A DNA stretch of 64,000 bases, from contig NZ_CP028472.1 in the NCBI RefSeq assembly GCF_003047105.1, positions 186,001 to 250,000 on the forward strand, written 5' to 3'. Under the pieces are notes generated by a model that saw only the letters and a program-made list of their open reading frames with translations, made no database searches and was not told the origin of the DNA. Position numbers and translations under genes: made by a program. Positions within the stretch are counted from its first letter, which is position 1. Each line of letters opens with the position of its first letter. Source of the stretch: Celeribacter baekdonensis. Its GTDB lineage: Bacteria > Pseudomonadota > Alphaproteobacteria > Rhodobacterales > Rhodobacteraceae. Shown piece after piece: positions 43,250-64,000 of the stretch.

Positions 43250-43310
43250 GTCAATCTGCCCCCCGGCGCGGAGGAGGCGTCGGGGGTGTACCCCTTTGGA
43301 GGAGAGTCCC

Positions 43311-48532: not shown

Positions 48533-48846
48533 TGCAGTTCTCCTCCCAGTGTTGCGTGAGTGGTGGCTGCTTCCTCCCCGAAGCAGATGGTCCACCAGCC
48601 AAGACAGCGACCGAAATCGCGTCTTTGCGCATTTTTATCGCGGTAGTTTAACAGTCTTTGCCTTTTCCACCACAATTATTGCGTTTTGGCCTGTCTGTGC
48701 CGGGGGTCTAAGGGGCCTGCACGGCTGAGCCTGTGGGGCCGTTTATGTCCTCGCGATGCATATTGGGCGTGTCGCACAGTGCGGGCCTTTTAGCCACGAA
48801 GCGGTCGTCTTGACCGCGTTTTATCTGTGCGCACCGTGGCACCACC

Positions 48847-48895
48847 GTCCGGTTTTCGGACGCCCCTCAGGCCGCGCTCAGACCGAAAACCGGAC
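48847..48895. promoter_or_regulatory. Paired enhancer sites (GTCCGGTTTTCGGAC and GACCGAAAACCGGAC) upstream of cobW
   Basis: Two 15-bp sites in opposite orientation (48847-48861 and 48881-48895; 14 of 15 complementary), centres 34 bases apart, lie 65-115 bases before the -24 element at 48960. This is the usual arrangement for hexameric enhancer-binding proteins. The rest of 48533-49007, apart from this and the promoter, shows nothing. Confidence 0.7.
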
Positions 48896-48959
48896 GCTTT
48901 GGAGAAGAGGTTTGAAGCACGCTCACGGCAAGCCGTTGTTTGGCCTGAAAAGTCGTGAG

Positions 48960-48975
48960 TGGAACGAAACCTGCT
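48960..48975 (+). promoter_or_regulatory. Sigma54-type -24/-12 promoter of the cobW-thiolase-rpoN operon
   Basis: TGGAACGAAACCTGCT has GG and GC spaced by 10 bases and matches TGGCACG-N4-TTGCW except for A at the fourth position and C before TGC. The cobW start is 33 bases downstream. Paired enhancer-like repeats sit upstream. It would put the rpoN paralogue of this operon under sigma54 control. Confidence 0.7.
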
Positions 48976-49007
48976 TCTCTTTTGGGAGGATGGATGGAGG
49001 AAAGCCG

Positions 49008-50264
49008 ATGACAACGCCCGAAAACCTTGCTGTTTTGGCGCGCCCTGCGGACGTTGGGCGGGTGCCTGTGACCCTGTTGACCGGGTTCTTGGGGGCCGGA
49101 AAAACAACACTTTTAAATCAGCTCATGCGCCTGCCAGAAATGGCCTCGGCGGCTGTTTTCATCAATGAGTTCGGTGAAATTGGCATTGATCACCACCTTG
49201 TTGAGCGAATCGATGAGGCCTTGGTGATTCTCGAATCTGGCTGTGTGTGCTGCTCGGTTCAGGGCGATCTGATCGCCGAACTGAAGCGGCTGCACGACCG
49301 CATGGCACGGCGCGATATTCCGCAGGTGTCTCGTGTGGTGATCGAGACCACGGGTCTGGCCGATCCGATGCCAGTGGTGCGGGCGTTGATGGAGGATCGG
49401 TTTGTGTCCGCCCGTTTCCGCTGTGACGGGATCGTCACGGTGGTGGACAGTGAACATGCCTCCGCCCAGCTGGCGCATCATCGCGAGGCTCGGGTTCAGG
49501 TCAGTATGGCGGACCGTATCGTCTTGTCTAAAACCGACCTTGCAACGCGCGCCGCACGGGCAGAGCTGACCAAAGCTTTGAGGGCGCTGAACCCCGCCGC
49601 GCCTCGGATGAGTGCGGCGGAGGCGGTTGAGGCCGTGAGCACTGTGTTGGGCGGCGGGCTTTATGCGCCGGAACAGATCCCGCAGGACCTTGGAGGCTGG
49701 TTACAGGCCCATGTCCCGTCAGGATCGCGCACGAAAACGATCTCCGCGCCGTTTTCCCCCGTCACACATGACCACCACAGCGGCCGCGTCCGCAGCTTTT
49801 CCGTGCGCTTGCCAAAGCCGGTGGCCTGGCGGGGCTTTTCTGTGCGGATCGGTGAAATCCTTGCGCGCTGGTCGGGTCAGATTTTGCGCCTCAAAGGCAT
49901 TGTGGCGGTTGAAGGGATCGACACACCAACCGCCATTCAATGCGTGCAGGATACCGCCTATGCGCCCGTGCATATGGCGCGCTGGCCAAAACAGGATGCG
50001 ACCGGGGCATTGCGCGCGGGGCAGGGTGCGGTGGTGGTGATAGGCGAGGATTTGACGGCTGAGGATGAACAGGCAATCCGCGCCCTGTTAACTGAGTTTC
50101 CGGCGGACAGGTTGGCGCTGCGCCGTGCGGCCGCCTTGCCGGATTTGGCCACGCGCAACTGGCTCAACGAACGGATGCCCTTGGCGTCACGACCGGGGAT
50201 GATCTCTGAGGCGTTTGTGATCCAGCCGCGGTTTTTGCGCGATGCGCATGGATCAGTTGGGTGA
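49008..50264 (+). CDS. CobW/COG0523-family GTP-dependent metal chaperone
   Basis: The protein has 418 residues from ATG 49008, after TGGAGGAAAGCC. The G1 loop is LTGFLGAGKTTLLNQL (about 22-37), the metal-binding CxCC is in ESGCVCCSVQGDL (about 79-87), and ETTGLADPMPVV and KTDLA supply further GTPase motifs. The C-terminal CobW_C domain follows (SFSVRLPKPVAWRGFSVRIGEIL). COG0523 proteins deliver Zn, Co or Fe to client enzymes. Its sigma54-type promoter and its place beside metal-dependent ketone carboxylase genes suggest a client in this pathway. The metal cannot be read from the sequence. Confidence 0.9.
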   Translation: MTTPENLAVLARPADVGRVPVTLLTGFLGAGKTTLLNQLMRLPEMASAAVFINEFGEIGIDHHLVERIDEALVILESGCVCCSVQGDLIAELKRLHDRMARRDIPQVSRVVIETTGLADPMPVVRALMEDRFVSARFRCDGIVTVVDSEHASAQLAHHREARVQVSMADRIVLSKTDLATRAARAELTKALRALNPAAPRMSAAEAVEAVSTVLGGGLYAPEQIPQDLGGWLQAHVPSGSRTKTISAPFSPVTHDHHSGRVRSFSVRLPKPVAWRGFSVRIGEILARWSGQILRLKGIVAVEGIDTPTAIQCVQDTAYAPVHMARWPKQDATGALRAGQGAVVVIGEDLTAEDEQAIRALLTEFPADRLALRRAAALPDLATRNWLNERMPLASRPGMISEAFVIQPRFLRDAHGSVG

Positions 50265-50333
50265 TGAACCTCTCCGTCACCCCAAGGTCGCTCAGAGAGG
50301 GGCGGCAAAATGACAATCACAAAGGAGAATAAC

Positions 50334-51500
50334 ATGACTGGCATTCATATCGTGGGCAGTGGCCACACCGCGTTTGGGCGGCTCGATGCCCGCAGCCTAG
50401 AAGACCTGATCGTCGACGCCACGCGCGAGGCATTGTCGGAAGCTGGGATCAGCGGCAAAGACATTGATGCGGTGTATCTTGGACATTTCAATGCTGGCAT
50501 GTCCGACGACGGGTTTGCCTCGTCTTTGATCCATCAGGCCGACGACCAATTGCGATTCAAACCGGCGACGCGGATTGAAAATGCCTGTGCCTCAGGTTCG
50601 GGGGCTATTTACGCCGGGATGGACGCTATTTTGGCGGGTCGGGCCAAGCGTGTTTTGGTGGTGGGTGTCGAAAAAATGACCCACCGCAGCACGCCCGAAG
50701 TGACCGCCTCGCTTGGCCGTGCCGGGTATCAAAGCGATCCGAGTGAGGCCGGGTTGAGCTTTCCGCAAGTGTTTGCCATCGCGGCCAAAGCCTATGCTGA
50801 GCGCTACAGCAATCCGAGTGAGGCCATGGCGCGGATTTCGTCGAAGAACCACAAGAATGCTCTGGCCAATCCACTGGCCCAAATGCGCCGCGATCTGAGC
50901 TTTGAGCAATGCAACGAGGTGACCGAGAAGAACCCGCTGATCGCGCCGCCGCTGCGCTTGTCGGATTGTTCGCTGATTTCTGATGGTGCCGCCGCCGTGG
51001 TGCTCAGTGCCGATCCGGCGGCCCATACGCGCAGTGCGCATATCCGTGCTGCCGTGCATGTGTCGGATTTTCTCCCCATGTCGCGTCATGGTATTTTGCG
51101 CTTTGAAGGTCCGAAACGGGCCGTGGCGCAGGCCTATGCGGTGGCGGGGATCACGGTGGATGATGTGGGATTTGCCGAGGTGCACGACTGTTTCACCATC
51201 GCGGAATTGCTGATGTACGAAGCGCTTGGCCTGTGTGACGCGGGGCAGGGCGCCACTGTGTTGGCGGACGGTTCTGTCTATCGCGGGGGGCGGTTGCCGG
51301 TGAACCTGTCTGGTGGGCTCAAGGCCAAAGGCCATCCGGTCGGCGCCACCGGCGTGTCGATGCATGCGCTGTCGTTTCGGCAATTGACCGGTACGGCGGG
51401 GGAGATTCAGGTGGAGGCCCCGCGCCTTGGCGTTGTGGTCAATATGGGTGGCGCGGCTGTGGCAAACTATGCGACCGTCTTGGAAACAGGCCACGTCTGA
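50334..51500 (+). CDS. Thiolase of the SCP-x / acetyl-CoA acetyltransferase-like type
   Basis: The protein has 388 residues from ATG 50334, with AAAGGAG upstream. The acyl-accepting cysteine lies in ENACASGSGAIYAGMDAILAG (about 84), the HDCF motif of SCP2-type thiolases is in EVHDCFTIAELLMYEALGLC, and GGLKAKGHPVGATG carries the catalytic histidine. The classical C-terminal CxG is replaced by NMGGAAVANYA, as is usual for this subfamily. It would cleave a 3-oxoacyl-CoA such as that made from the beta-keto acid product of the carboxylase. No CoA ligase or CoA transferase is in the window. Confidence 0.9.
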   Translation: MTGIHIVGSGHTAFGRLDARSLEDLIVDATREALSEAGISGKDIDAVYLGHFNAGMSDDGFASSLIHQADDQLRFKPATRIENACASGSGAIYAGMDAILAGRAKRVLVVGVEKMTHRSTPEVTASLGRAGYQSDPSEAGLSFPQVFAIAAKAYAERYSNPSEAMARISSKNHKNALANPLAQMRRDLSFEQCNEVTEKNPLIAPPLRLSDCSLISDGAAAVVLSADPAAHTRSAHIRAAVHVSDFLPMSRHGILRFEGPKRAVAQAYAVAGITVDDVGFAEVHDCFTIAELLMYEALGLCDAGQGATVLADGSVYRGGRLPVNLSGGLKAKGHPVGATGVSMHALSFRQLTGTAGEIQVEAPRLGVVVNMGGAAVANYATVLETGHV

Positions 51501-51525: not shown

Positions 51526-51648
51526 ATGCGCTTGACCAACCTGTCGGAGAGCATAGAGGATCGGGTGGGCCGTGCCACCGCGTGCCGCTTGATCTGGTCC
51601 GATTTCATGGCGTTGAACCCGCGTGCGCTTTTGGGATCAACACCATGA
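51526..51648 (+). CDS. Small 40-residue protein translationally coupled to the rpoN paralogue
   Basis: An ATG at 51526 preceded by the strong site GAGGGGAGGAACGC opens a frame of 40 codons (MRLTNLSESIEDRVGRATAC to ALLGSTP). Its stop TGA overlaps the rpoN-like start as ATGA. The good ribosome site, position between thiolase and rpoN, and exact overlap argue that it is translated, either as a functional small protein or as a leader that couples RpoN synthesis. No family recognised; basic, with no membrane segment. Confidence 0.55.
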   Translation: MRLTNLSESIEDRVGRATACRLIWSDFMALNPRALLGSTP

Positions 51649-52931
51649 AAGGCCCCAGTCTGCATCAGGTGCAATATCCGGCTCAGCGGATGTCACAGAC
51701 GATGCAACGGGCACTTAATCTGTTGCAAATGGACAATGCCGAGCTGAGCGGTCTTTTGATCGAAGAGGCCGCGCACAATCCGCATGTGCAGGTCACGCTG
51801 CCAATGCCCGAAGACCCGGCGCCAGTGCGCAAGCACAGGCATTGGGGCACGCCCGGTCTCATGGCCGGGGCTGCCGATTTTGATCCCGATCGCATGGGTG
51901 CCGAGGCGACGGGTCTTTACGCCCATGTCCAGGCGCAGGTGGGGCTTCTTTTTCAAACCGCAAATGAGCGTGCCATTGCCGAGGCGTTCATCGCTGCGCT
52001 CGACCTTTCGGGTTGGTTGGGTGAGACCGTGGAGGAGGTGGCCCGTTCGGCAGGTTGTGCGCCTGAGAAAGCGGAACAGGTGTTGCTCACCTTGCAGGAG
52101 GTTGAACCCACTGGGCTGTTCGCGCGGTCGTTGGCCGAGTGTTTGCGTTTGCAATTGGCCGAGGCACAGGCTTTGGATGTCCCCATGCAGCACCTGCTGG
52201 ACAACCTACCGGCCTTGGCGCGTGGCGACACGGCGCTGTTGTTGGATCGGTGCGGTGTCGACGCGCCGGAGTTGGGGCGAATGGTCACGCTTTTACGCAG
52301 CCTCGACCCCAAACCGGGTGCGCAATTCGACTCCGCCCCAGCACCCCGCCGCGTGCCTGATCTGATCGTCAGTCGGGATTCACAGGACAGGTGGCAGGTG
52401 GTGATGAACCGGGCCAGCACACCGGAGGTCCAAGTGGCGCATCTGGCCGAGCCCTCCAGCAAGGAAGGTTTGGAAACCGCCCGATGGCTGGAGCGCACCT
52501 TGTCGCGGCGTAGCCAAATGATCCTGCGGGTTGCGGGCTATGCGATTGCATTTCAACACGCGTTTCTGGAACAGGGGCCGACACGGTTAAAACCATTGAC
52601 CAACGCCGAGGTGGGCGCGGCCTTGGGCCTTCATGAAACCACGGTGGGGCGTATCCGCAACGGGCTTTTGATGCAATTGCCCGAGCGCGTGGTGACACTG
52701 GATGCGTTTTTTGGCCGGGGGCGTGTCGCCTGCCGCAATGGTGGCAGCCTTGCGGGAGATGCGATTGCGGCCATCCTCACCACGCTGGTTGCTGCTGAGC
52801 CGCCAAAGGCTCCTTTGACCGATGCTCAACTGGTGGACGCCCTTGCCCTGCGTGGCATCACGATGTCGCGTCGGACATTGGCCAACTGGCGCAAACGCGC
52901 CGGGATCGGCACCGCATCTGAACGCAAATGA
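51645..52931 (+). CDS. rpoN: RNA polymerase sigma54 factor paralogue (RpoN-1 of this island), divergent
   Basis: This 428-residue protein has the RpoN layout. Region I reads RMSQTMQRALNLLQMDNAELSGLLIEEAAHNPHVQV, which contacts activators. A core-binding domain follows (DLSGWLGETVEEVA, VEPTGLFARSLAECLRLQL, LRSLDPKPGAQF). The helix-turn-helix LTNAEVGAALGLHETTVGRIRNG (about 318-340) and a C-terminal RpoN box SRRTLANWRK at about 408-417 complete it. The usual box is ARRTVAKYRE; here Tyr is Trp and Lys is Asn. The acidic region II is short. The canonical housekeeping RpoN presumably lies elsewhere. It sits at the end of the cobW operon, whose promoter is itself sigma54-like. Confidence 0.92.
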   Translation: MKGPSLHQVQYPAQRMSQTMQRALNLLQMDNAELSGLLIEEAAHNPHVQVTLPMPEDPAPVRKHRHWGTPGLMAGAADFDPDRMGAEATGLYAHVQAQVGLLFQTANERAIAEAFIAALDLSGWLGETVEEVARSAGCAPEKAEQVLLTLQEVEPTGLFARSLAECLRLQLAEAQALDVPMQHLLDNLPALARGDTALLLDRCGVDAPELGRMVTLLRSLDPKPGAQFDSAPAPRRVPDLIVSRDSQDRWQVVMNRASTPEVQVAHLAEPSSKEGLETARWLERTLSRRSQMILRVAGYAIAFQHAFLEQGPTRLKPLTNAEVGAALGLHETTVGRIRNGLLMQLPERVVTLDAFFGRGRVACRNGGSLAGDAIAAILTTLVAAEPPKAPLTDAQLVDALALRGITMSRRTLANWRKRAGIGTASERK

Positions 52932-53019
52932 CAGCCGGCCTTTGCGCGCAAGATGTGATGCGCGACTTTTGCCGCATTTGAGAGTAGAGTGGTGGAACAT
53001 TCCACTAGAAAGCGGTCTC

Positions 53020-53271
53020 GTGCAGGTGCGTCTTGAGAAAATAGTCCCGTTCAAACGACAACGCAGGTTCTATGCGCTCAGCATTGACCAAACGCTGTTT
53101 GGGGAATGGTGTTTGATCCGGGAATGGGGTCGCATCGGAGCGATTGGCGGTCAAAAAAGGGGTGCGTATCTCGCCACGCAAGACGACGCGCTACGGGCCC
53201 TTGAGGGCATAAAGCGTGCAAAGAATAGGCGTGGATATGCGACAATCCCGGTTCAGCTTGAGTTGATTTGA
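53020..53271 (+). CDS. WGR-domain small protein
   Basis: The protein has 83 residues from GTG 53020. VQVRLEKIVPFKRQRRFYALSIDQTLFGEWCLIREWGRIGAIGGQKRG contains the W-G-R signature (REWGRIG) that names the domain, found in poly(ADP-ribose) polymerases and in small bacterial proteins proposed to bind nucleic acid. The start is uncertain because the ribosome site is weak; a GTG two codons later is possible. A short palindrome GTGGAA-CA-TTCCAC lies at 52992-53005 just upstream. Role here unknown. Confidence 0.8.
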   Translation: MQVRLEKIVPFKRQRRFYALSIDQTLFGEWCLIREWGRIGAIGGQKRGAYLATQDDALRALEGIKRAKNRRGYATIPVQLELI

Positions 53272-53388
53272 AAGGCAAATATTCCTTGGTGCGGCGATTG
53301 TTGGCAATAATTACCGCATAATTTGCGGCGAATAAGATTGACGATGCGGCGCAAACACCCCATATTTCCCGCAAGGAGTGCGGTGAAT

Positions 53389-54504
53389 ATGACGTATATC
53401 CACGAAAAACCAGATTGGCCAAAGTTCGTTTGGCAGAGCGAAGCCATTGCTGACAGTCTTGGCCGTGTTCGGCATCAACAAGGCCGTTTGATTGGCCGGA
53501 TGGAGGCCCTTGGGTTTGACGCGCAGGCTGAGGCGGTTCTTAGCGTGCTCACCGAGGATGTCACAAAATCGAGTGAAATCGAGGGTGAAACTCTGGATAA
53601 GAAACAGGTGCGCTCGTCCATTGCACGCAAGCTTGGGCTTGATGTTGGGGGGCTGGTGGCCGCCGATCGGCATGTGGATGGCATTGTTGAAATGATGCTG
53701 GATGCGACCCAGAAGTTTTCAGATCCGTTGACGGAAGACCGGCTTTTCGGCTGGCACGCGGCTTTGTTTCCGACAGGGCGTAGCGGGATGACCAAAATCA
53801 CAGTTGGGGATTGGCGGCGCGAAACTTCGGGCCCGATGCAGGTTGTGTCTGGTGCCTATGGCAAGGAACGGGTGCATTTTGAAGCGCCTGCGGCCGGTCG
53901 GGTGACCGAGGATATGCAGGATTTCCTTGAGTGGTTTAACAACGATGGGCGGCTTGACGGGGTTTTGAAAGCCGCGATTGCGCATTTCTGGTTCGTCACG
54001 ATCCATCCCTTTGAAGACGGAAATGGACGGATTGCGCGGGCCATTGCAGACATGGCCTTGGCCCGATCTGAAGGCATATCTCGGCGCTTTTATAGCATGT
54101 CTGGACAGATCCGACAGGAACGCGAGGCGTATTATGCCGCTTTGGAGCGCGCGCAAAAAGGCGATTTGGACATTTCAAATTGGGTGATTTGGTTTCTGGA
54201 GTGCCTCGGACATGCCTTTACCAATGCGGAAGAGATTTTCACATCGGTTCTGTACAAAGCGCGGGTTTGGGATTGGCTCAAAGATCAAAGCCTCAATCCT
54301 CGGCAGCGGGAGATGATCAATCGGCTGCTGGATGGGTTTGAGGGCAAACTCACGTCCTCGAAATGGGCGAAAATCACGAAAACCTCATCGGATACGGCAC
54401 TGCGCGACATCACCGATCTTGTGACCCGCGACATTCTTGCCAAGCAAGACGCGGGCGGGCGCAGTACAAGCTATGTGCTTAGATTTTCTGGTGAGGATCG
54501 GTGA
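53389..54504 (+). CDS. Fic-family protein (probable AMPylator) with an internal inhibitory motif
   Basis: The protein has 371 residues from ATG 53389, with AAGGAG upstream. The N-terminal Fic_N region reads KPDWPKFVWQSEAIADSLGRVRHQQGRL. A class II type inhibitory helix [S/T]xxxE[G/N] is seen in SSEIEGE (about 61-67). The complete Fic active loop HPFEDGNGR lies at about 206-214, and a winged-helix-like C-terminus ends it (SDTALRDITDLVTRDILAKQDAGGRSTSYVL). The intact histidine and glycine loop indicate an active nucleotide transferase held in check by the N-terminal glutamate. It is often chromosomal and not tied to toxins. The target is unknown. Confidence 0.93.
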   Translation: MTYIHEKPDWPKFVWQSEAIADSLGRVRHQQGRLIGRMEALGFDAQAEAVLSVLTEDVTKSSEIEGETLDKKQVRSSIARKLGLDVGGLVAADRHVDGIVEMMLDATQKFSDPLTEDRLFGWHAALFPTGRSGMTKITVGDWRRETSGPMQVVSGAYGKERVHFEAPAAGRVTEDMQDFLEWFNNDGRLDGVLKAAIAHFWFVTIHPFEDGNGRIARAIADMALARSEGISRRFYSMSGQIRQEREAYYAALERAQKGDLDISNWVIWFLECLGHAFTNAEEIFTSVLYKARVWDWLKDQSLNPRQREMINRLLDGFEGKLTSSKWAKITKTSSDTALRDITDLVTRDILAKQDAGGRSTSYVLRFSGEDR

Positions 54505-54693
54505 GTGATGACCTGTGCGGGCGACAGGTATCGGAGCATTTGTGCCTTGTGACCCGCGCAGAACCGCAGAGGGGCTGGGCGTTCGAGTTCCTTGCAGAGG
54601 CGTCACATTCGGTGTTCAAAAACTGAACATTCCCGTTGATTTCGCACGCTTCAGGGTAACACTGTTGCCACCTGAGGAGGGGGAGACTGTGTC

Positions 54694-56520
54694 ATGAGCA
54701 TGAAAACGACGTTTCTGCAGGCGCGCGCCGCGTTAGACGCAGGTGAACGATTTGCGCATGCCGCGATGCCTGAGGAGATCGCGCGCAGTTGGCAAAGGTG
54801 CCTGCGCGTGGGGCTGGAACCCGGTGGCGAGCCGGTGGATGCGGTGATCTCGTATCAGGAGCTGCAACTCGCACGTCAACAGAACGAACGGCTGATGGAA
54901 ATCGTTCGGCCAGAACTTGAACTCCTGAGTTCGCAGATTGCCGGTACGAACTATATGACGGCCTTTGCGGATGCGAACGGGACCGTTTTGGATGCCATCA
55001 TGGACGCCGAATTTCACGCCGCTGAGTGTTCGCGCAGTGTGCGACCCGGCTCGATCTGGCGCGAAGATTTGCGCGGTACAAATGCGCTTGGGTTGGCGTT
55101 GTTCACCGGACAGACCAGTATGGTGACCGGGCCTGAGCATTTTTTTACACGCCATGGTGGGGTGTCCTGCGTTTGCGCCCCGATTTTTGCATCAGACGGC
55201 AAGATCGTTGGGCTGCTTGATGCGTCCTCCGAGGTGTCTGATCGACAGTATCATACCAAGGCTCTGGTCAGTCTGGCGGCGACGAATATTGAAAACCGAT
55301 TGTTCATCGAAAGCCATCGTCGAGATTACATCATACAGTTCCATCCCAGGGTCGAATATTTGGCGACGCAGAGTGTGGGGATGGTGTCGGTGACTGAGGA
55401 CGGCTATGTCACCGGCGCCAACAGAAGTTCGGCCAGATTGCTGTCGGGGATGAACTTTTTGACCATGAACCGGTTCAGCGACATCTTTGGCGGCTCTTTC
55501 CGGTCGATCCTGCGCAAACTGATCCAAGGCGACACGGTCGAGCTTTCGGATGGGTTGAATGCCAGCTATTTCGCCCGGCTGCGCCCCATGTCACGGCCGC
55601 GCTCGGGTCGCGGACCAGCGCAGGAGGTGACGCTGCGCGCTCCGCGGCTGTACCGATTAGAGCCTCAGGAACAGGAGCTTGTTTTTGATGACGAGCTGCT
55701 GCGCGAATGTTTGCGTGTGGCGCGCCGGGCGGCGGATGTGGGCCAGCCGGTGTGCATTCACGGCGCAACGGGAACCGGCAAAACAGCGATGGCCGAGGTC
55801 ATACACCGACATCTGCATCCGGCAAAACCGTTGATCGTCGTAGACTGCCGCAGGCTGACCCAAGACACGGATATGCGCGGGGTGATCGGGGAGTTGATGC
55901 AGGCCACCGCCCCCTCGGGGCTTTCTCTGGCGCAGGGTGGTACATTGCTGTTGGAACATGTTTCCGCTCTGGCTGGCCTGGCCGCAGATGAGTTGAACGT
56001 GCTCTTAGACAGTGTGCGCAGAGATGTGGCGGCGGGGCATTGGTATGTGGTGGCGACGGATCAGCCACACCAGGATCAAACGCATATCCGCACCAGAACG
56101 ATTGCGGGCGTCAACATGCTGACCGTTGATTTGCCGGGGCTCAAGGCGCGCACTGATTTCGATAAATTGGCGCGGATCATGCTGACGGATTTATCGTCGC
56201 AACATCAACTGTCAGCCAAGGCCCTGCGCAAGCTCGCGTCGATGGAGCGGCCCGGCAATTTAAACGATCTGCGGCATCATTTGCAGGTCTTGGTGGCAAG
56301 CTGTCCCGCCGGGATTGTGCGCGAGACGCAGGTGGAGCATTTCTTTCCGTCGCACCAGAGTGAAACGAGGGCCTGTGGCCGCTGCTTAGGGGTTCCGATG
56401 CGAGAGAAGCGATGCCTCGAGGTGCGGCGTGTCTTTCAAATCTGTCAGTGCAATGTGGCGCTGACCGCTCGTCGTTTGGGCATCTCGCGCAATACGGTTT
56501 ATTCGCATTTGAAAGACTGA
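54694..56520 (+). CDS. AcoR/MimR-like regulator with GAF and degenerate AAA+ domain (no GAFTGA)
   Basis: The protein has 608 residues. The N-terminal half is AcoR-like: MPEEIARSWQRCLRVGLEPGG, then a GAF domain (NYMTAFADANGTVLDAIMD ... REDLRGTNALGLALFTGQTSMVTGPEHFF). A PAS-like part follows, then an AAA+ domain with Walker A GATGTGKTAMAE (about 357). Two features expected of a sigma54 activator are missing: there is no GAFTGA loop, and Walker B reads GGTLLLEHV instead of GGTLFLDEI. The arginine-finger region is also diverged. The Fis-type helix-turn-helix is kept (NVALTARRLGISRNTVYSHLKD). Mycobacterial MimR, which controls an acetone-induced diiron monooxygenase in organisms without sigma54, is a comparable AcoR-type protein. 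It probably acts on the monooxygenase operon at 62.6 kb. Confidence 0.85.
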   Translation: MSMKTTFLQARAALDAGERFAHAAMPEEIARSWQRCLRVGLEPGGEPVDAVISYQELQLARQQNERLMEIVRPELELLSSQIAGTNYMTAFADANGTVLDAIMDAEFHAAECSRSVRPGSIWREDLRGTNALGLALFTGQTSMVTGPEHFFTRHGGVSCVCAPIFASDGKIVGLLDASSEVSDRQYHTKALVSLAATNIENRLFIESHRRDYIIQFHPRVEYLATQSVGMVSVTEDGYVTGANRSSARLLSGMNFLTMNRFSDIFGGSFRSILRKLIQGDTVELSDGLNASYFARLRPMSRPRSGRGPAQEVTLRAPRLYRLEPQEQELVFDDELLRECLRVARRAADVGQPVCIHGATGTGKTAMAEVIHRHLHPAKPLIVVDCRRLTQDTDMRGVIGELMQATAPSGLSLAQGGTLLLEHVSALAGLAADELNVLLDSVRRDVAAGHWYVVATDQPHQDQTHIRTRTIAGVNMLTVDLPGLKARTDFDKLARIMLTDLSSQHQLSAKALRKLASMERPGNLNDLRHHLQVLVASCPAGIVRETQVEHFFPSHQSETRACGRCLGVPMREKRCLEVRRVFQICQCNVALTARRLGISRNTVYSHLKD

Positions 56521-57347
56521 ACAGCACCAATGCCTTGCGCCAATGCGGCGGAGATTTGATCTTGGTGACGGGTCGCGTCTTCTTCTGAGAGAAAGCGCAA
56601 AGCGGGCGTGTTTTCTGTCAAAAGCGCCATGCCTAAGCTGCGGCGATGCGCATCCAATATGACAAAAAGGCCGCGTGGTGGACCTCGAAAGCGGTGCGTT
56701 TCGATGAATGCGCGGATCGTTTCGGGGGCCGGCCAGATCGGCGATCCGGCATGGGGCAACATACGCACGAGGGTCACGGCGTCTTTTTGCTCCGCCGGAC
56801 GCAGGCAGACGTCATTTAGGGCAATCAACGGCGGGTGCAACAGATGCCATTGTTCTGGTGTCATCACAAAATCGCGGCACAACTCTGCCGATTGTGTGCT
56901 TTGGAAAAACATTTTACGCAGGGTTGGGGCGGGTGAAAACCCGAGCCGCGTCAGCAAGGTCTGCGAGGCCGCATTGTCCGTGTGACAGGTGGCGCTCAGC
57001 GGTGGCGCGAGCGCGGCGAAATGGGCGGTCACGGCGCGTTCTAGCGCCTGATGCATCAGCCCGCGACCCCAAAATGCCGGGTCGAGCCAATACCAAAGCG
57101 ATGCCCCGATGCACAGACACCCCGCCACTGCGCCGCCGTGTTCGACAATAAAGAGATGTTCATCGGGATGTTGGCCGTGAGCCAGCAGCGCATCGACATC
57201 TGACGGGCCAAAGGGCTGTGGCAGCGCGGCAAGCCAAGGGGCGATCCGGGGATCGTTCAACTGTTGGATCAGGGTCGGCAGATCCTTTTTCTGGACCTGA
57301 CGAAGGACGAAATCTTGCGGTGCCTGATCGGTGGAAAAGCGGGTCAT
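56499..57347 (-). CDS. GNAT-family acetyltransferase (two tandem GNAT-like halves)
   Basis: The protein has 282 residues from ATG 57347 (MTRFSTDQ); the frame extends to 57395. The first half carries a GNAT acetyl-CoA motif region, GAVAGCLCIG ... LDPAFWGRGLMHQALERAV, then TCHTDNAASQTLLTRLGFSPAPTLRKMFF, as in RimJ/RimL-like enzymes. The second half begins again with LNDVCLRPAEQKDAVTLVRMLP and GPPRGLFVILDAHRRSLGMALLTEN, suggesting a duplicated, shorter domain. Its end overlaps the 54694 gene end by 22 bases in convergent orientation. Substrate unknown. Confidence 0.8.
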   Translation of the reverse strand: MTRFSTDQAPQDFVLRQVQKKDLPTLIQQLNDPRIAPWLAALPQPFGPSDVDALLAHGQHPDEHLFIVEHGGAVAGCLCIGASLWYWLDPAFWGRGLMHQALERAVTAHFAALAPPLSATCHTDNAASQTLLTRLGFSPAPTLRKMFFQSTQSAELCRDFVMTPEQWHLLHPPLIALNDVCLRPAEQKDAVTLVRMLPHAGSPIWPAPETIRAFIETHRFRGPPRGLFVILDAHRRSLGMALLTENTPALRFLSEEDATRHQDQISAALAQGIGAVQSFKCE

Positions 57348-57435
57348 GGGGCTCTCTGAATTGGCCTGCGATAGACCCAGAACAGCGCGAATCATCGGAC
57401 GAAATCAAGAAGCTGATTCGGAAATAATCGCGATT

Positions 57436-57451
57436 TGGAAAATATACTGCA
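57436..57451 (+). promoter_or_regulatory. Sigma54-type -24/-12 element with no gene close downstream
   Basis: TGGAAAATATACTGCA again has GG-N10-GC and the TGGAA form seen at three other sites. Upstream, CGAATCA / TGATTCG arms lie at 57388-57394 and 57414-57420; downstream is the palindrome GGAACA-ATA-TGTTCC at 57471-57485. The next + strand gene starts at 58021. Between 57486 and 57691 no convincing gene is seen, so the product may be a long leader or a small RNA. Confidence 0.5.
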
Positions 57452-57691
57452 CTGCAGAAAAATCTCTTTTGGAACAATATGTTCCAACCGCAAAATGAAA
57501 ACGTAAAGCTATTTTACAACTTTTCTAACGCGCCACGAATTTGGGCAAAAAACCACCTGTTTAAAGCGGATTCCATTGCGTCATCCTGTCGCTTCGATAG
57601 CCTGACCCAGACAAAGATCGGATGTTCAGGGGAGGGGATAGCCGTGCACGAGACATTACAAACAGGGCCGTATGGTTTGCACGATGCGGGC

Positions 57692-57970
57692 TCAGTTCGG
57701 ACGTTCTTTGGTTTGCCCCGAGGCGTAGGACATCACATCCCAAATCGCAGAAATATCGGTGGCCATCAGCCGATGCACCTGCTGCAAAATCCGATCTTTG
57801 AGCCCATCGTCCAGCGCATCAACGGCGTGGCGTGCCGCACGCATGTCCTGCGGATCACGGGTTTCCAGCGCCTGTTGGATGGCGTTTTGACAGGGCGTGT
57901 CCAGGCCATCGGTTTGGGTACACACCAAGGCGAGCGTTTGGAAAAATCGAATGTCGGCGGGATCAATCAT
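57692..57970 (-). CDS. Small hypothetical protein, 92 residues
   Basis: MIDPADIRFFQTLALVCTQTDGLDTPCQNAIQQALETRDPQDM... is a soluble, helix-rich, acidic protein with two cysteines and no signal or membrane segment. GAAGGG lies 9 bases before the ATG at 57970. It is divergent from the 58021 gene across 50 bases. I do not recognise a family. The opposite strand also has an open frame here, but its composition (Arg, His, Gly rich) looks like an antisense shadow. Confidence 0.6.
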   Translation of the reverse strand: MIDPADIRFFQTLALVCTQTDGLDTPCQNAIQQALETRDPQDMRAARHAVDALDDGLKDRILQQVHRLMATDISAIWDVMSYASGQTKERPN

Positions 57971-58020
57971 CGTGTCGGCCCTTCAATGCGTAAAACAGCA
58001 CTCATTTAAAGGGGGTCTCA

Positions 58021-58311
58021 ATGACAGGTCAATCACGCAGCCTTCAAGATATTCTCATGGACCGTCTGAAAGTCACACAGGACATCGCGGCGGCCAATGT
58101 CGAGCACATGCGGCTGAACCAAAAAGCCAGCGGGATGATGGTGTTGGATATGAAGGACGAAGAGGACGGCGTGGTCGATGAGGGCCGCGAGGTCGAGCGC
58201 CGCCAAAACGAGGCCGCGTTGGAGCGCAGCGCCGACATCATCACTGCATTGGAAGGGCGTCTTTCCGCACTGGATGCGGAAATCGACACCGTTATGAAAA
58301 AGGAAAACTGA
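58021..58311 (+). CDS. Small helical protein of unknown function, first gene of the WD40 cassette
   Basis: The protein has 96 residues: MTGQSRSLQDILMDRLKVTQDIAAANVEHMRLNQKASGMM ... ALERSADIITALEGRLSALDAEIDTVMKKEN. The C-terminal 35 residues form a likely coiled coil. AAAGGGGGTCTCA gives a good ribosome site. Its stop codon directly abuts the ATG of the WD40-like gene (58312), so the two products are made together and may bind each other. No family recognised. Confidence 0.75.
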   Translation: MTGQSRSLQDILMDRLKVTQDIAAANVEHMRLNQKASGMMVLDMKDEEDGVVDEGREVERRQNEAALERSADIITALEGRLSALDAEIDTVMKKEN

Positions 58312-59451
58312 ATGACACAGCACATGCCACCTCAGGCGCTCTCGCTTTTTGATTTGTTGGCCCGGACATGGGACTTGGACCAAAACATCCGGCAGGTTCT
58401 GTTCAACATGGACGGAACGGCGCTTGCGGTGGTTCAGGCCGACGGTCGCATGACGTTTATCGGCGTGAAGGATGCCGAAGGCCCGGAAAAACGGATACGG
58501 CAGGAACTCGACACCGGCCGGATGACCATTCGGGCACGGGAAAAACCACTGCCGATGCCTCTGACCAGCCGGGATGCCACGGCGCTGTCAGACAGTAAAA
58601 TCTGCCCGCTTGGGCCACAGGGATTTGCCTTTGTCCATAGCGAGGGCGAAGAGCTTTGGCGGGCGACGCCGCGTGGCCAGCTTCTGCGGTTGTTGCCCAG
58701 TGAGGGCGCTGACATCACGGCACTGAGCGCCTTGCCAGGCGCGGCACGGATCGTGGTCGGGCGCGGCGATCAAATTTCGGTTGTGAGTGCTGAGGGCGGG
58801 GAGCCGCTGAGCAGCACAGAGTTGACGCATGATGTGCGTGACATCGCGGTGTCAGACGATGGGTGCCTGTTGGCGTGTTGGGGGGCGGGGCATATCAGCC
58901 TCATCAAAACCGATGGTCTTGAGCCTGTGACGACACTGCCCTGTCAGGGACAGGTTTTGGCGATGCGCTGGTCGCCCTGCGCACGTTGGTTGATCGCGGG
59001 GTGTCGCGACAAATCGGTTCTGGTGGTGGATGCCGCAGCCGGGACCGCAGATCGGATTGTTGATTTTCCACAGGCGGTGCAGTCGGTGGATTTCAGCGCA
59101 ACCTCGCGGGCCATGGTCGCGTCCGGGGCCTTCCGCGTGGTGGGTTGGGCGCTGCCTGAACTGCCTTTTGGCGATCACGAAGGGGACCCGATCACGACCG
59201 GCAAACCGGGGCTGACGATTGTGGATCGGCTGTCGGTTCACGGCAAACGTGACCTTTGCGCCGTTGTGTATAGCAACGGGTTGGTCACGATTTGCCGGGT
59301 GGGACAGCCCGAGGAGATGATGTTGCGCGAAGGCACCGGCGTTGCTGTCACTTCGGTCGCGTGGTCCGGGACCGGCACACATCTGGCACTGGGAGCCGAG
59401 GATGGCACGGTGTCCATCGTCACGTTCCCAGACGACATGTTCAAACAATAA
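58312..59451 (+). CDS. WD40-like beta-propeller protein
   Basis: This 379-residue soluble protein has about seven repeated blade units of 40-50 residues. Examples are VLFNMDGTALAVVQADGRMTFIGV, VRDIAVSDDGCLLACWGAGHISLI, VLAMRWSPCARWLIAGCRDKSVLVVDAAAG, VQSVDFSATSRAMVASGAFRVVGW and VTSVAWSGTGTHLALGAEDGTVSIV. Without an enzyme domain or signal peptide, it is expected to be a cytosolic binding scaffold. It is tightly linked to small genes on both sides. Its connection to the sigma54 genes on either flank is unknown. Confidence 0.85.
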   Translation: MTQHMPPQALSLFDLLARTWDLDQNIRQVLFNMDGTALAVVQADGRMTFIGVKDAEGPEKRIRQELDTGRMTIRAREKPLPMPLTSRDATALSDSKICPLGPQGFAFVHSEGEELWRATPRGQLLRLLPSEGADITALSALPGAARIVVGRGDQISVVSAEGGEPLSSTELTHDVRDIAVSDDGCLLACWGAGHISLIKTDGLEPVTTLPCQGQVLAMRWSPCARWLIAGCRDKSVLVVDAAAGTADRIVDFPQAVQSVDFSATSRAMVASGAFRVVGWALPELPFGDHEGDPITTGKPGLTIVDRLSVHGKRDLCAVVYSNGLVTICRVGQPEEMMLREGTGVAVTSVAWSGTGTHLALGAEDGTVSIVTFPDDMFKQ

Positions 59452-59470
59452 AACCAAGGGAGGAGGATCA

Positions 59471-59650
59471 ATGACACAAGCATTGACCACAGAAGAACAA
59501 AGCAAAGACCGCTTTTTCCAAGCACTTGCGAAAGTGGCCGAAGAGATGGTTGAGGAGCACGGCAAAGATTTCGCGGCGGGGGCGCTGGTTCTGGCCGCGC
59601 GCTGGGTGGCCGAAAACCGCCTTGGCCAAGCCGAAGACCTCAAGCACTAA
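59471..59650 (+). CDS. Small hypothetical protein, 59 residues
   Basis: The ATG at 59471 lies 5 bases after GGAGG, 19 bases downstream of the WD40-like gene. MTQALTTEEQSKDRFFQALAKVAEEMVEEHGKDFAAGALVLAARWVAENRLGQAEDLKH is one or two amphipathic helices. It is the last gene of the three-gene cassette. Its end overlaps the end of the opposite-strand gene by 4 bases. No family recognised. Confidence 0.7.
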   Translation: MTQALTTEEQSKDRFFQALAKVAEEMVEEHGKDFAAGALVLAARWVAENRLGQAEDLKH

Positions 59651-60620
59651 TGGAACTTTGACGCCTGCCGCATCCCGGTGGGCGTCGTTCCGGGGGCCGC
59701 CAGCCTTTGAATCTGGCTCACAAGTATACTGTTCAATGGTCCGGCCAACCGCGCAAGCGGGGCGGTCGAGGAGGATGTGTTGGCGGCTGCGACGCCCGCC
59801 ACATCCAATATTTTCGTCAAATCCGGTTCCACCAGTTGAGCGAAGGCACAGAGTTCATGAATCCGAAACGTGGCAAAATGCAAACTGTCGTCATTCGCCA
59901 GCACGTTGGTGTGCTGCCGGGTCGGGACATGGGTGTTGAGCGCGTTGCTGTGCACCGCCGCCCCAAGCGTGGTCAGCACCGTCTTGCGCCACTTCGCGTA
60001 ATCGGTGTCTGCGGAGTGATCAATGCCGACGGTATAGAGCTTTTCGGAAATGGTCCGAAAAACCCGCCCGCCTGCGATGTGACGCCGCCAAAATTCATTC
60101 GCCTCTTCAACGCTTTGACAGTCGGCAAACCGTTGCGCAAGTTTGGGACGGATCAGCAGGACCAGGGCCATATCCACATCTTCGGAAATCGACCGGGCGA
60201 TTTGCATGGCGGGCATCGGCAGGTCCGTCAACGCCAAAAGCCGCAGGGCGCTGAGTTGTTCGGTCAGCCGCGCGGACAGGGCCGCAAGCCCGTGCCATTG
60301 CGCCGGGGTCAGACCTTCGATCTGGTGGCTGCGTGCGCAACTTGCGACGGCGTGCAACGCGCGGACCCAAAGAATGCATTGATCAAACAGAAAGACCAAA
60401 TCCACCTCGGCGCTGTTGGGTGCGTTTTCAATGCGCGGCAGGGCTCGAAACCCCGGCAGGCTGCGCACCCCGTCGCGCCAGTGGCGATCAAAATCCAACC
60501 CTTTCGCCGCCCAAAGCTGTTTCACGCGGGCCAAAAGCTGTGGCGAGAGGCCGGGGTAGGACAGTTCGGGGGTGCATATTCGAAAGGGAGTGTTCCGCCA
60601 GTCGGATCATTCTTGTGCAT
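59647..60620 (-). CDS. Uncharacterised helical protein, N-terminus interrupted by an apparent one-base frameshift
   Basis: The intact frame (up to 60534, with only a TTG available as start) is helix-rich: VDLVFLFDQCILWVRALHAVASCARSHQIEGL ... LTDLPMPAMQIARSISEDVDMALVLL. Upstream its frame continues as PFRICTPELSYPGLSPQLLARVKQLW without a start. Another frame opens at ATG 60620 (MHKNDPTGGTLPFEYAPP). One extra base in the GGGGG run at 60568-60572 fuses them to a 324-residue protein. No known domain is evident and there are no membrane segments or catalytic motifs I can name. It lies between the WD40 cassette and the second rpoN, which is divergent from it. Confidence 0.65.
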
Positions 60621-60687
60621 GGGGCTGCGTGTCCGGGTTTCAGTTAAGTCACGATAGACCGGCCATCGCGCCTATGGCCAGAGTTTT

Positions 60688-60701
60688 GTCCCAGCTGGGA
60701 C
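60688..60701. promoter_or_regulatory. Perfect 14-bp palindrome GTCCCAGCTGGGAC before the second rpoN
   Basis: It lies 38-51 bases upstream of the rpoN-like ATG at 60739 and in the divergent region with the 60620 gene. It could be a repressor or activator site or a small RNA hairpin in the leader. No -24/-12 element was found here. Confidence 0.45.
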
Positions 60702-60738
60702 GGAGGAGTTGCCCCGAGAGGGGCGGAGGGAGAAAAAG

Positions 60739-61983
60739 ATGTCGCTAGCCATTCTTATGCGAGCCAGACAGACACAGGTGTTCAAAATTGGTCAGGTGAT
60801 CGAGGTGTTGAACATGTCCTCGGCCGAGTTAGACGACCATATTGCACAGACCGCGCGGGACAATCCGATGATCGTGCTGCGCCCGCGCCGCGCGGGCGGT
60901 GTCAGTGCGACGGATGTCCTTGAAATGACCGCCGTAGAAGAGGCCTCAAGCCTCTATGATCACGTTTTTCGCGAGCTGGCGGGGTTGATTTTGCAGGGCG
61001 GTCAGTTGGAAAAACTGGTCATCGCCTTGATTGAGGAGCTTGATCCATCCGGCTGGCTTGGGCGGTCGGTGGCCCAGATCGCCGAGACGCTGGGTCTCCG
61101 GGCCGAGGTGATCGAAACCGCGTTGAAAATCATCCAGAAACGTGTCGAACCGGCGGGTCTTTTTGCTCGCAATCTGGAGGAGTGTTTGCGGCTTCAATTG
61201 GAAGATCAGGACGCCATGACCGAGACCTTGGGGCGGGTTTTGGCCCATCTGGGGGCGTTTGAAAAAGGTGGTCCGGCCTGTCTGGCCAAAGCCGCCGGGC
61301 TTGAGATGGAAGAGGTGATGTCCTGTCTGTCGGTGATCCGTCGGCTGAACCCGAAACCAGGGGCTGTTTTCATGACGGATGCGACGCTTTTGCGTGAGCC
61401 GGATGTGAGGGTGACGTTGTCCACAACGGGGTGGGAGATCGAATTTCTCTCTGGTCAACCATCTGAAATGTCGATTTTACCGATGCCAAAAGGCGCGCAG
61501 ACCCCGGTGTTGCGTGAGGCGCTTGCACGGGCGCGGGCGCTGAAACAAGCCTTGGAGTTGCGTCAGTCCGCGGTAAAGCAGGTGGTGCGGGTTTTGGTGG
61601 ATCGACAAAGCGCGTATTTTCACACCGGAGCCGAAGCTTTGGAGCCGATGACCATGTCCGACGTCGCCCAAATCACCGGCTATCATGCGAGCACCGTGAG
61701 CCGCGTGTTGAATGGGTTGTTGATCGAAGGCCCCCATGGCGTGATCGCGGCGCGGGTGCTTTGCGCCGGGGCGGCCTCGGTCGAGATGACACATTCCAAA
61801 CCCAAAGTTCAGGCGCGCATCAGGGCCCTTCTGGCGTCTGAGGATTCAACACGTCCGCTGTCTGATCGTCGGCTGACGGCGCTGTTGCAGGTGGAGGGCA
61901 TCACCGTGTCCCGCCGTATCGTATCGAAATATCGTCAGGAAATCGGTCTTGCATCGGCAGCGAAACGGCGTCTTTACGCCTGA
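60739..61983 (+). CDS. rpoN: RNA polymerase sigma54 factor paralogue (RpoN-2 of this island)
   Basis: The protein has 414 residues from ATG 60739, after GGAGGGAGAAAAAG. Region I, QVFKIGQVIEVLNMSSAELDDHIAQTARDNPMIVL, lacks the glutamine richness of classic RpoN. The core-binding part is recognisable: EELDPSGWLGRSVAQIAETLG, RVEPAGLFARNLEECLRLQL, RRLNPKPGAVF. The helix-turn-helix reads MTMSDVAQITGYHASTVSRVLNG (about 304-326) and the RpoN box SRRIVSKYRQ (about 391-400). The stretch after the HTH, normally near ELKYFFS, reads ARVLCAG. It differs strongly from RpoN-1. It immediately precedes the diiron monooxygenase, whose promoter is a -24/-12 element. Confidence 0.92.
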   Translation: MSLAILMRARQTQVFKIGQVIEVLNMSSAELDDHIAQTARDNPMIVLRPRRAGGVSATDVLEMTAVEEASSLYDHVFRELAGLILQGGQLEKLVIALIEELDPSGWLGRSVAQIAETLGLRAEVIETALKIIQKRVEPAGLFARNLEECLRLQLEDQDAMTETLGRVLAHLGAFEKGGPACLAKAAGLEMEEVMSCLSVIRRLNPKPGAVFMTDATLLREPDVRVTLSTTGWEIEFLSGQPSEMSILPMPKGAQTPVLREALARARALKQALELRQSAVKQVVRVLVDRQSAYFHTGAEALEPMTMSDVAQITGYHASTVSRVLNGLLIEGPHGVIAARVLCAGAASVEMTHSKPKVQARIRALLASEDSTRPLSDRRLTALLQVEGITVSRRIVSKYRQEIGLASAAKRRLYA

Positions 61984-62332: not shown

Positions 62333-62348
62333 TGGAACGCCGTTTGCA
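62333..62348 (+). promoter_or_regulatory. Sigma54-type -24/-12 promoter of the diiron monooxygenase operon
   Basis: TGGAACGCCGTTTGCA matches the consensus TGGCACG-N4-TTGCA in all but one base, A at the fourth position. GG and GC are 10 bases apart. The hydroxylase gene starts 248 bases downstream, so a leader of about 235 bases is expected; 62400-62580 shows no separate gene. Confidence 0.75.
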
Positions 62349-62595: not shown

Positions 62596-64000
62596 ATGAC
62601 TTTAACGCTTAATAAAATCACGTCTCAGCGTGGGATTTCGGTGGGGGAGGCCACCAAGAAGATTTCCGATCTTGGTTGGAACCCTTCTTATGTGCAGGAA
62701 GCCAGCACGTTCCCGACGGACTACAAAATCACCAAGGCACCGCGCGATCCGATGAAACAGGTTCTGCGCTCCTACTTCCCGATGCAGGAAGAAAAGGACA
62801 ACCGCGTTTATGGTGCCCTTGACGCCGCTTTGCGCGGTGACATGTTCCGCAACGTTCAACCCCGTTGGGTCGAATGGATGAAGCTGTTCTTGGCCATCAT
62901 CCCCTTCCCGGAAATTTCGGCTGCGCGCTCCATGGCGATGATTGCACGTCTGGCTCCGGGCGAAGATCTGCGGACCGGGTTTACCATGCAGATGGTGGAC
63001 GAATTCCGTCACTCCACGATTCAGATGAACCTGAAAAAGTGGTACATGGAAAACTACATCGACCCAGCCGGGTTTGACATCACCGAAGAAGCGTTTGGCA
63101 AATGCTATGCCACCACGATCGGTCGCCAATTTGGCGAAGGCTTCATCACCGGGGACGTGATGACTTCGGCCTGTATGTATTTGACCGTGGTTGCCGAAAC
63201 GGCCTTTACCAACACGCTTTTCGTGGCCATGCCGTCGGAAGCCGCCCGCAATGGCGACTATGCGCTGCCCACCGTGTTCTTGTCGGTTCAGTCCGATGAA
63301 AGCCGTCACATTGGCAACGGTCACTCGATGTTGATGGCCGCGTTGAAAGAGCCGGAAAACCACCTGCTTTTGGAACGCGATCTGCGCTACGCGTTCTGGC
63401 AAAACCACGCCATCGTTGATGCCGCCATCGGTACGCTGATCGAATACGGCACCACCAACCGCGACAAGGACAAAGAGTCCTATGCGGAAATGTGGCACCG
63501 TTGGATTTTTGAAGATTACTACCGGACCTACATGCTTCCGCTTGAGAAGTATGGTGTGAAAGTCCACCACGATGACGTCCAGGAAGCCTGGAACCGGATC
63601 ACCAAGAAGAACTACGTTCACAAGATCGCTCAGTTCTTTGCCGTTGGCTGGCCTGTCAACTTCTGGCGGATCGAAGCTCAGACCGAAAAAGATTTCGAAT
63701 GGTTTGAGCACAAATATCCGGGTTGGTATGCCGAATTCGGTGACTTCTGGAAATGGTACTCCAAATTGTCGAAGCCGGGTGAAACGGTTGTCACCTTCAA
63801 CGAAGACACCGGCTACGTCTATCCGCATCGGTGCTGGTCGAGCTTGGTGCCGTGTGTTGTCCGTGAAGACATCGTTGTCGATCAGATTGACGGCCAGTGG
63901 CACACTTTTGCGCATGAGCTGGATCGTTGGACCGCAGTCTCCGCGTTCTCGGATGAATACGAGGGCCGTCCGACGCCTGCGATGGGCAAATTCTCGGGCA
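62596..64000 (+). CDS. mimA: Soluble diiron monooxygenase hydroxylase alpha subunit, propane/acetone/phenol type (PrmA/MimA-like), 3'-truncated by the window end
   Basis: At least 468 residues are visible. The start ATG 62596 has AAGGAGG 8 bases upstream; the ATG at 62591 stops after two codons. The ferritin-like core shows the two Glu-x-x-His iron sites, MVDEFRHSTIQMNLKK (about 134-149) and VQSDESRHIGNGHS (about 232-245), plus IPFPEISAARSM near 104 with a likely first-site glutamate. RDPMKQVLRSYFPMQEEKDNRVYGALDAALRGDMF and EYGTTNRDKDKESYAEMWHRWIFEDYYRTYMLPLEKYG are characteristic of propane monooxygenase PrmA and MimA. These enzymes hydroxylate propane (to 2-propanol), acetone or phenol with coupling protein, reductase and beta subunit, expected past the window. 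Confidence 0.92.
   Translation, partial: MTLTLNKITSQRGISVGEATKKISDLGWNPSYVQEASTFPTDYKITKAPRDPMKQVLRSYFPMQEEKDNRVYGALDAALRGDMFRNVQPRWVEWMKLFLAIIPFPEISAARSMAMIARLAPGEDLRTGFTMQMVDEFRHSTIQMNLKKWYMENYIDPAGFDITEEAFGKCYATTIGRQFGEGFITGDVMTSACMYLTVVAETAFTNTLFVAMPSEAARNGDYALPTVFLSVQSDESRHIGNGHSMLMAALKEPENHLLLERDLRYAFWQNHAIVDAAIGTLIEYGTTNRDKDKESYAEMWHRWIFEDYYRTYMLPLEKYGVKVHHDDVQEAWNRITKKNYVHKIAQFFAVGWPVNFWRIEAQTEKDFEWFEHKYPGWYAEFGDFWKWYSKLSKPGETVVTFNEDTGYVYPHRCWSSLVPCVVREDIVVDQIDGQWHTFAHELDRWTAVSAFSDEYEGRPTPAMGKFSG

Follow-up and report, generated by a model that had tools for sequence, protein, structure and literature searches.

Sigma54 (RpoN) is commonly presented as a single factor shared by many activators. 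In Cereibacter (Rhodobacter) sphaeroides, the available portions of two reports describe four RpoN proteins, of which RpoN1-NifA, RpoN2-FleQ and RpoN3-AprX form dedicated pairs, and position -11 of the promoter matters in the discrimination between RpoN1 and RpoN2 (PMC11999139, PMC7277832); this matches the dedicated extra copies that a first-pass annotation of the locus studied here had cited for that species. Plasmid-borne copies have been described elsewhere. Rhizobium etli p42d carries rpoN near nifS and nifW, and the accessible descriptions of Bradyrhizobium DOA9 RpoNp and of the Ralstonia megaplasmid rpoN2 mention a chromosomal rpoN as well. In Paracoccus aminophilus, the sole rpoN noted lies on pAMI4, and the part of the report at hand reads this as a sign of wide importance (PMC3925955). 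Here, we analyzed a 64,000-nucleotide stretch of Celeribacter baekdonensis (the window; positions 186,001 to 250,000 of contig NZ_CP028472.1, C1 below), which contains two sigma54 genes, labeled RpoN-a (at 51645) and RpoN-b (at 60739). Judging from sequence comparison, these are, with a probability of roughly 0.8, sigma54 factors each dedicated to one pathway and both encoded on what is probably a plasmid, the housekeeping rpoN being absent from the genome. The evidence comes from the genes present and their linkage, from phylogeny, and from promoter-like elements that are conserved and co-vary with the type of RpoN.

We judge the present case to be of the C. sphaeroides kind, extended to catabolism, a probable plasmid and a genome in which no other sigma54 system was found. 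As in C. sphaeroides, there are several RpoNs per genome, each in or beside its presumed target cluster; in the literature portions available for that species, rpoN2 lies inside its target locus and promoter letters help discriminate, and the one activator with a GAFTGA loop per cluster found here is consistent with the cognate activators of the RpoNs studied there. What sets the present case apart is that the presumed targets are catabolic clusters, two of them on one probable plasmid, that neither a further RpoN nor a further GAFTGA activator was found, and that the differing letters fall within the -24 element for RpoN-b and within the -12 element for RpoN-a, as opposed to position -11 reported in those portions for RpoN1 and RpoN2. 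The R. etli p42d copy likewise sits on a plasmid near its likely targets, but its RpoN groups with lptB-linked proteins. The DOA9 and Ralstonia copies share the plasmid location, whereas a chromosomal rpoN is present there according to the accessible descriptions. The P. aminophilus pAMI4 copy resembles our case in being plasmid-borne and the sole RpoN, with a WD40-like gene and a cluster for a diiron monooxygenase as neighbors, but belongs to another RpoN clade, and its monooxygenase operon is divergent from rpoN. Among the literature matches listed, which left most subscription papers outside, no title or abstract opening concerned an RpoN dedicated to these clusters.

The coordinates of both genes, which had been proposed as strongly dissimilar sigma54 paralogues, were confirmed, and the proteins share 29% identity. 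Each contains all three sigma54 domains of Pfam above the curated cut-offs (Sigma54_AID, CBD and DBD with 31.3, 144.1 and 117.7 bits for RpoN-a and 24.3, 115 and 133.1 bits for RpoN-b), the AID match of RpoN-b being barely above the 23.8-bit cut-off and beginning at profile position 18 of 46. Scores of 260.6 and 263.1 bits fall slightly short of the 277.35-bit equivalog cut-off of the NCBIfam model TIGR02395 (rpoN_sigma); both are divergent members of the sigma54 family. RpoN-b retains RR.V.KYR of the RpoN box ARRTVAKYR. RpoN-a retains RRT, with N replacing K and W replacing Y, and the N is common to the consensus of its clade. The neighborhoods were also as first described: the RpoN-a gene closes a cobW-thiolase-rpoN run next to the carboxylase operon, and the RpoN-b gene precedes the diiron monooxygenase, ending about 610 bp before the alpha-subunit gene (Table 1).

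Table 1. Features of the carboxylase and monooxygenase clusters (window positions unless marked C1).
Feature	Position	Strand	Remarks
Degenerate GTCCG-N5-CGGAC copy, putative activator site upstream of the carboxylase promoter	38380..38394	.	found by eye; missed by the search pattern
-24/-12-type element of the carboxylase operon	38491..38509	+	TTGGAAAAGAACCTGCATC; from alignment of upstream regions
Carboxylase operon	38641..46398	+	HyuA-type (644 amino acids), small subunit, HyuA-type (736 amino acids), HyuB-type, 273-amino-acid protein
GAFTGA activator (bacterial enhancer-binding protein) of the carboxylase cluster	46526..48595	-	GAF, sigma54-activator AAA+ with GAFTGA, Fis-type helix-turn-helix
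Inverted repeat, putative activator site of the cobW-rpoN-a promoter	48847..48861	.	GTCCGGTTTTCGGAC
-24/-12-type element before cobW-thiolase-rpoN-a	48959..48977	+	GTGGAACGAAACCTGCTTC; from genome scan with the carboxylase-promoter pattern
CobW-type GTPase gene	49008..50264	+	proposed start 49008; long open reading frame begins at 48756
Thiolase gene	50310..51500	+	domain match
RpoN-a gene	51645..52931	+	428-amino-acid sigma54; RpoN box SRRTLANWRK (classical ARRTVAKYRE)
DhaR-like GAF-AAA regulator gene	54694..56520	+	without GAFTGA; in part of the monooxygenase clusters
WD40 beta-propeller protein gene	58312..59451	+	upstream of RpoN-b in 28/29 loci; the exception, L050, is cut by a contig end
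Conserved protein divergent from rpoN-b	59647..60534	-	in 29/29 RpoN-b loci, 60-95% identity
RpoN-b gene	60739..61983	+	414-amino-acid sigma54; RpoN box SRRIVSKYRQ; helix-turn-helix HASTVSRVLNGLL
-24/-12-type element of the monooxygenase operon	62333..62347	+	TGGAACGCCGTTTGC
Diiron monooxygenase alpha-subunit gene	62596..64000, on past the window to C1:250257	+	called mimA here
GAFTGA activator of the monooxygenase cluster	C1:263490-265517		far end of the cluster, 13.5 kb beyond the window

Carboxylase genes, a GAFTGA activator and cobW accompany RpoN-a in all nine loci examined (the window, L109, L110, L160, L181, L184, L185, L190 and L192), one of which is on a plasmid of Neorhizobium, a member of a different bacterial order. 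In a family sample of 394 genomes from 393 genera, the window's own genome included, three genomes have strong RpoN-a matches (at least 649 bits; next best 434), and the carboxylase HyuA gene is confined to these same genomes. Without the genome of the window, this leaves two and two of 393, a coincidence with a chance of about 1.3e-5 if the genes were independent.

For RpoN-b, we surveyed the best 80 of 548 confirmed candidates in the genome collection, counting loci with at least 46% identity as members of its clade (the next loci have 37-38%). The clade comprises 29 of the 80 loci, and in every one the monooxygenase genes lie directly downstream in the same order. In nine more loci, the RpoN is of another type, a WD40-like gene is present and the monooxygenase operon is divergent; no monooxygenase lies within reach in the remaining 42. 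A GAFTGA activator stands at the far end of the cluster in all nine RpoN-b genomes whose far end was fetched. The monooxygenase gene is present in 12 of the 394 family genomes, each of which also has an RpoN (11/11 with the window's genome excluded, chance about 9e-6), and rpoN lies within 5 kb of it in ten of the 12, eight with RpoN-b and two with the divergent layout. In the other two genomes (G083 and G130), RpoN is unlinked and occupies the slot between lptB and hpf. The alpha subunits of the sample are 87-94% identical to that of the window and occur alongside several kinds of RpoN.

Neither factor was thus seen in its place without the catabolic genes in the loci examined, many relatives being known only as proteins. 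The first-pass annotation had suggested that both are sigma factors specialized for one pathway. Linkage and phylogeny support the specialization, but the pair looks more like two separate systems with one pathway each, because RpoN-a and RpoN-b occur apart in genomes of the same genus. An RpoN match was found in 11 of 20 genomes of the window's genus and in none of the other nine; three of the 11 carry both factors, three RpoN-a only, one RpoN-b only and four others.

The main phylogenetic tree was built from 55 of 143 RpoN rows, C. sphaeroides RpoN1-4 not being among them, and a quick tree of all 143 rows agrees with it. Clade a and clade b each form a group of their own with 100/100 support, and three further RpoNs linked to a monooxygenase join clade b (100/99). 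The lptB-linked housekeeping proteins and the R. etli p42d RpoN occupy another branch, away from both clades, and one Cereibacter ovatus RpoN (L102) also falls outside them. The clades differ in the helix-turn-helix and the RpoN box, the parts of sigma54 that read the -12 and -24 elements. The majority letters of the helix-turn-helix are HESTVSR in classical proteins, HETT..R in clade a and H.STVSRVLNGLL in clade b; those of the RpoN box are ARRTVAKYR, SRRTVAN.R and SRRVVAKYRQE, respectively.

Promoter-like elements with GG-N10-GC spacing are present upstream of the presumed targets of both RpoNs. Before the carboxylase operon, an element ending in CTGCWTC (consensus GGMA-N6-CTGCWTC) was found in 8/8 RpoN-a loci with enough upstream DNA, L204 having too little. 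A genome scan with this pattern gave 13 matches, compared with six for a reversed control, and one of them, at window position 48961, lies before cobW-thiolase-rpoN-a, besides the source site. The element upstream of cobW is present in 9/9 RpoN-a loci, in three as the variant GGTA, and because of its location we propose that RpoN-a drives its own operon; the likely cobW start, 49008, immediately follows the element. In addition, with the two RpoN-a promoters pooled, 12 of 16 regions contain a GTCCG-N5-CGGAC-like inverted repeat at a distance of 93 to 115 bp before the GG.

The RpoN-b loci have a GGAAC element with the same spacing upstream of the monooxygenase in 29/29 cases (27 TGGAAC and two GGGAAC, 25 finishing in TTGC and four in GTGC), and GGAAC in 33 of 34 when the window and four more loci are added to the 29. 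The classical sigma54 consensus, as given in the available portion of its source, is TGGCACG-N4-TTGCW (PMC4999443). In the nine loci in which another RpoN is linked to the monooxygenase, the position of the first A of GGAAC, which distinguishes the two forms, is C in seven, T in one (L054, where the element was chosen by place and a higher-scoring match lies elsewhere) and without a clear element in one (L055). It is also C in G361 and G051 (L239, L240), which are linked to other RpoNs. For the two genomes with an unlinked housekeeping RpoN, we predicted a classical element before inspecting the promoters, and both have TGGCAC-N5-TTGC (TGGCACGGTCCTTGC in G130 and TGGCACGGCTCTTGC in G083). Altogether, none of the elements chosen in the 13 monooxygenase loci with other or unlinked RpoN (L237-L240 included) carries A at that position. 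The element therefore co-varies with the type of RpoN.

These letters bear on the view that the two RpoNs are interchangeable at either promoter and that two copies are kept only since each cluster brought one. The GG-N10-GC core is common to both elements, and the clusters are separate in some relatives, so that their meeting on one plasmid may be recent. However, distinct -12 and -24 letters are kept within each clade, the residues of the recognition helix and the RpoN box differ between proteins that share little more than a quarter of their residues, and in C. sphaeroides, RpoN1 and RpoN2 each serve specifically their own set of genes, according to the accessible part of one report (PMC11999139). 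We therefore consider interchangeability unlikely.

To place the two genes in their genome, we searched the 4.44-Mb assembly (six contigs, 100% complete) in six frames for the sigma54 DNA-binding domain and found two RpoNs; a search for the core-binding domain returned the same two genes, and neither search revealed a third. Both genes are on contig C1 (420,560 bp), which is probably a plasmid because it has a RepC-family match. The sigma54-activator domain matches at 15 places in the genome, some of them two parts of one protein, and only two of the 15 have the GAFTGA loop, one per cluster and both on C1, like the rpoN genes (Table 1). One of the others, a response-regulator activator at C4:3524448 (L023:831-2330), has GAFPGA in place of GAFTGA and looks as if it had been freed from sigma54 after loss of the housekeeping rpoN. 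On the chromosome, the presumed genes lptC-lptA-lptB are followed after about 245 bp by hpf (assigned by Pfam) and presumably ptsN, with no rpoN between lptB and hpf, i.e., the usual lptA-lptB-rpoN-hpf-ptsN slot is empty. Among the 141 rpoN loci tested, rpoN occupies exactly this slot in 11, which all come from other genomes of the family, and it does so in L236 too. Since the slot is filled in these genomes and empty here, the housekeeping rpoN is absent from where it would be expected. An RpoN is not indispensable in the Rhodobacteraceae: among the 394 family genomes, the DNA-binding domain of sigma54 is matched in 141 at E 0.001 and in 130 above the cut-off.

It is improbable, in light of this inventory, that both genes represent the general sigma54 of the genome, moved to the plasmid and also serving chromosomal promoters, with the catabolic neighbors incidental. 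Chromosomal matches to the promoter patterns do exceed the reversed control, and the available part of the P. aminophilus report saw a sole plasmid rpoN as possibly important for overall regulation and did not link it to the monooxygenase cluster (PMC3925955). Yet that rpoN itself adjoins such a cluster, and for this reason a local role for it is worth testing. In C. baekdonensis, the genome yielded no further GAFTGA activator, no examined locus of either clade lacked the respective catabolic cluster, both proteins separate from the lptB-linked lineage in the tree, and 9/20 genomes of the genus manage without an RpoN match. Decay of one or both RpoNs to functionless passengers is hardly credible: the divergence from classical RpoN, the N and W in the RpoN-a box and the broken HyuB-type and GroEL-like genes nearby would fit decay, but frames and all three domains are intact, the promoter-like elements are conserved, and the ratio of non-synonymous to synonymous substitution rates (dN/dS) versus congeners is about 0.15 for RpoN-a (L181 and L184) and 0.11-0.12 for RpoN-b (L024 and L025), with 0.17 and 0.21 versus the more distant L109 and L034.

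We thus favor two pathway-dedicated factors, and on the simplest reading each RpoN would form a closed unit with the one GAFTGA activator encoded in its cluster. We infer binding, activation, inducers, autoregulation and insulation between the units as follows. In the carboxylase unit, the GAF-domain activator would sense a signal of the ketone pathway, bind the GTCCG-N5-CGGAC-like sites about 113 bp upstream and open RpoN-a polymerase at GGMA-N6-CTGCWTC of both the carboxylase operon and cobW-thiolase-rpoN-a, and RpoN-a would thereby amplify its own supply. In the monooxygenase unit, the far-end activator would open RpoN-b polymerase at TGGAAC-N5-TTGC before the monooxygenase operon.

Several points weigh against this reading. 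It is from comparison that we infer pathway specialization. Moreover, L172 (G082), a member of the RpoN-b clade on a long branch, has classical TGGCAC at its monooxygenase promoter, the one exception to GGAAC; rival candidate elements were present in L054 and L240, the latter with a weaker GGGAAC match at -644 as well. No repeated RpoN-b element was found near rpoN-b, i.e., no autoregulation of RpoN-b was seen. A genome scan with TGGMAC-N5-TTGC gave 41 matches, compared with 13 for the reversed control, and the other genome-wide matches of both patterns may leave room for wider regulons. The promoter difference may be traceable to few evolutionary changes, so that the counts are not independent. 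The surveys overlap (the records of G125, G345, G383 and G080 reappear as L033, L035, L034 and L051, respectively) and count near relatives apart, for example two C. baekdonensis strains. Finally, about 38 proteins at least 48% identical to RpoN-a and 113 at least 41% identical to RpoN-b are known, most of them without seen gene context. Because of the overlap and the missing context, we trimmed our confidence from 0.82 to 0.80. Two genes of the clusters are also broken. The HyuB-type carboxylase gene shifts frame at about 43600-43670 of the window and is a single open frame in 8/8 relatives; the GroEL-like gene is split into 391 and 152 codons (C1:254885-256515, L020:6885-8515) and is one frame of 561-565 codons in four of five relatives, the fifth being cut by the locus end. 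These breaks may be assembly errors or real lesions, and one or both pathways may not work in this strain.

As to the other genes of the carboxylase cluster, the small subunit has an open frame from 40576, and the best NCBIfam models are the acetophenone carboxylase subunits ApcA, ApcC and ApcD, whose equivalog cut-offs are not reached (358.4, 580.5 and 321 bits versus 1250, 1500 and 1500). The best match is to these subunits and not to a named acetone carboxylase; acetone and 2-propanol are the presumed substrates, as in the first-pass annotation. A second HyuB/HyuA pair lies on the minus strand (34327-36215 and 32179-34299), its HyuB being divided between two adjacent frames (359 and 270 codons). 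A Fic/DOC-domain protein with DUF4172 is encoded at 53323-54504, between the two clusters.

In the monooxygenase cluster, whose subunit names follow an annotated Ponticoccus cluster, the alpha-subunit gene, called mimA here with propane as the presumed substrate (as first annotated), is followed by genes for a reductase, the beta subunit, a coupling protein, an amidohydrolase, the GroEL-like protein, an alcohol dehydrogenase and KatG, and then by the GAFTGA activator. The soluble methane monooxygenase regulated by mmoR and mmoG is likewise a sigma54-dependent diiron monooxygenase with a GroEL-like gene in its cluster. The conserved protein encoded divergently from rpoN-b is more conserved than RpoN-b itself, has an all-helical predicted model (mean predicted local distance difference test score, pLDDT, 79.5) and recurs at 44% in a monooxygenase locus of Gemmobacter whose RpoN is of another type. 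The nearest NCBIfam model of the GAF-AAA regulator is DhaR, below cut-off, and GAFTGA is absent from all 16 listed frames of its family, some of which repeat one locus. This regulator is perhaps of the sigma70 type, like Escherichia coli DhaR.

At even odds, we propose that sigma54 of the Rhodobacterales has turned from a chromosomal global factor into portable, mutually insulated units of RpoN, activator and co-evolved promoter, often moved on plasmids with single pathways. The housekeeping gene would have been lost in most genera, the promoter letters would have shifted upon sigma swap, and this plasmid would carry a natural orthogonal pair. Plasmid rpoN copies elsewhere adjoin acetoin-dehydrogenase genes, flagellar genes or an aromatic-type catabolic cluster, which fits portable units; some others show no obvious pathway beside them. 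On Paracoccus pantotrophus pPAN2 (L211), a very divergent rpoN has acetoin dehydrogenase genes and an activator of the sigma54 type as neighbors and is a candidate for another dedicated unit.

In this strain, sigma54 itself seems to be reserved for a single pathway and no housekeeping copy is present, so that single-gene deletions have clean predictions. The homologous monooxygenase operons, with their several kinds of RpoN and differing promoter letters, offer a ready comparison for the co-evolution of sigma54 and its promoters. If the two units are insulated from each other, they would be usable as expression tools.

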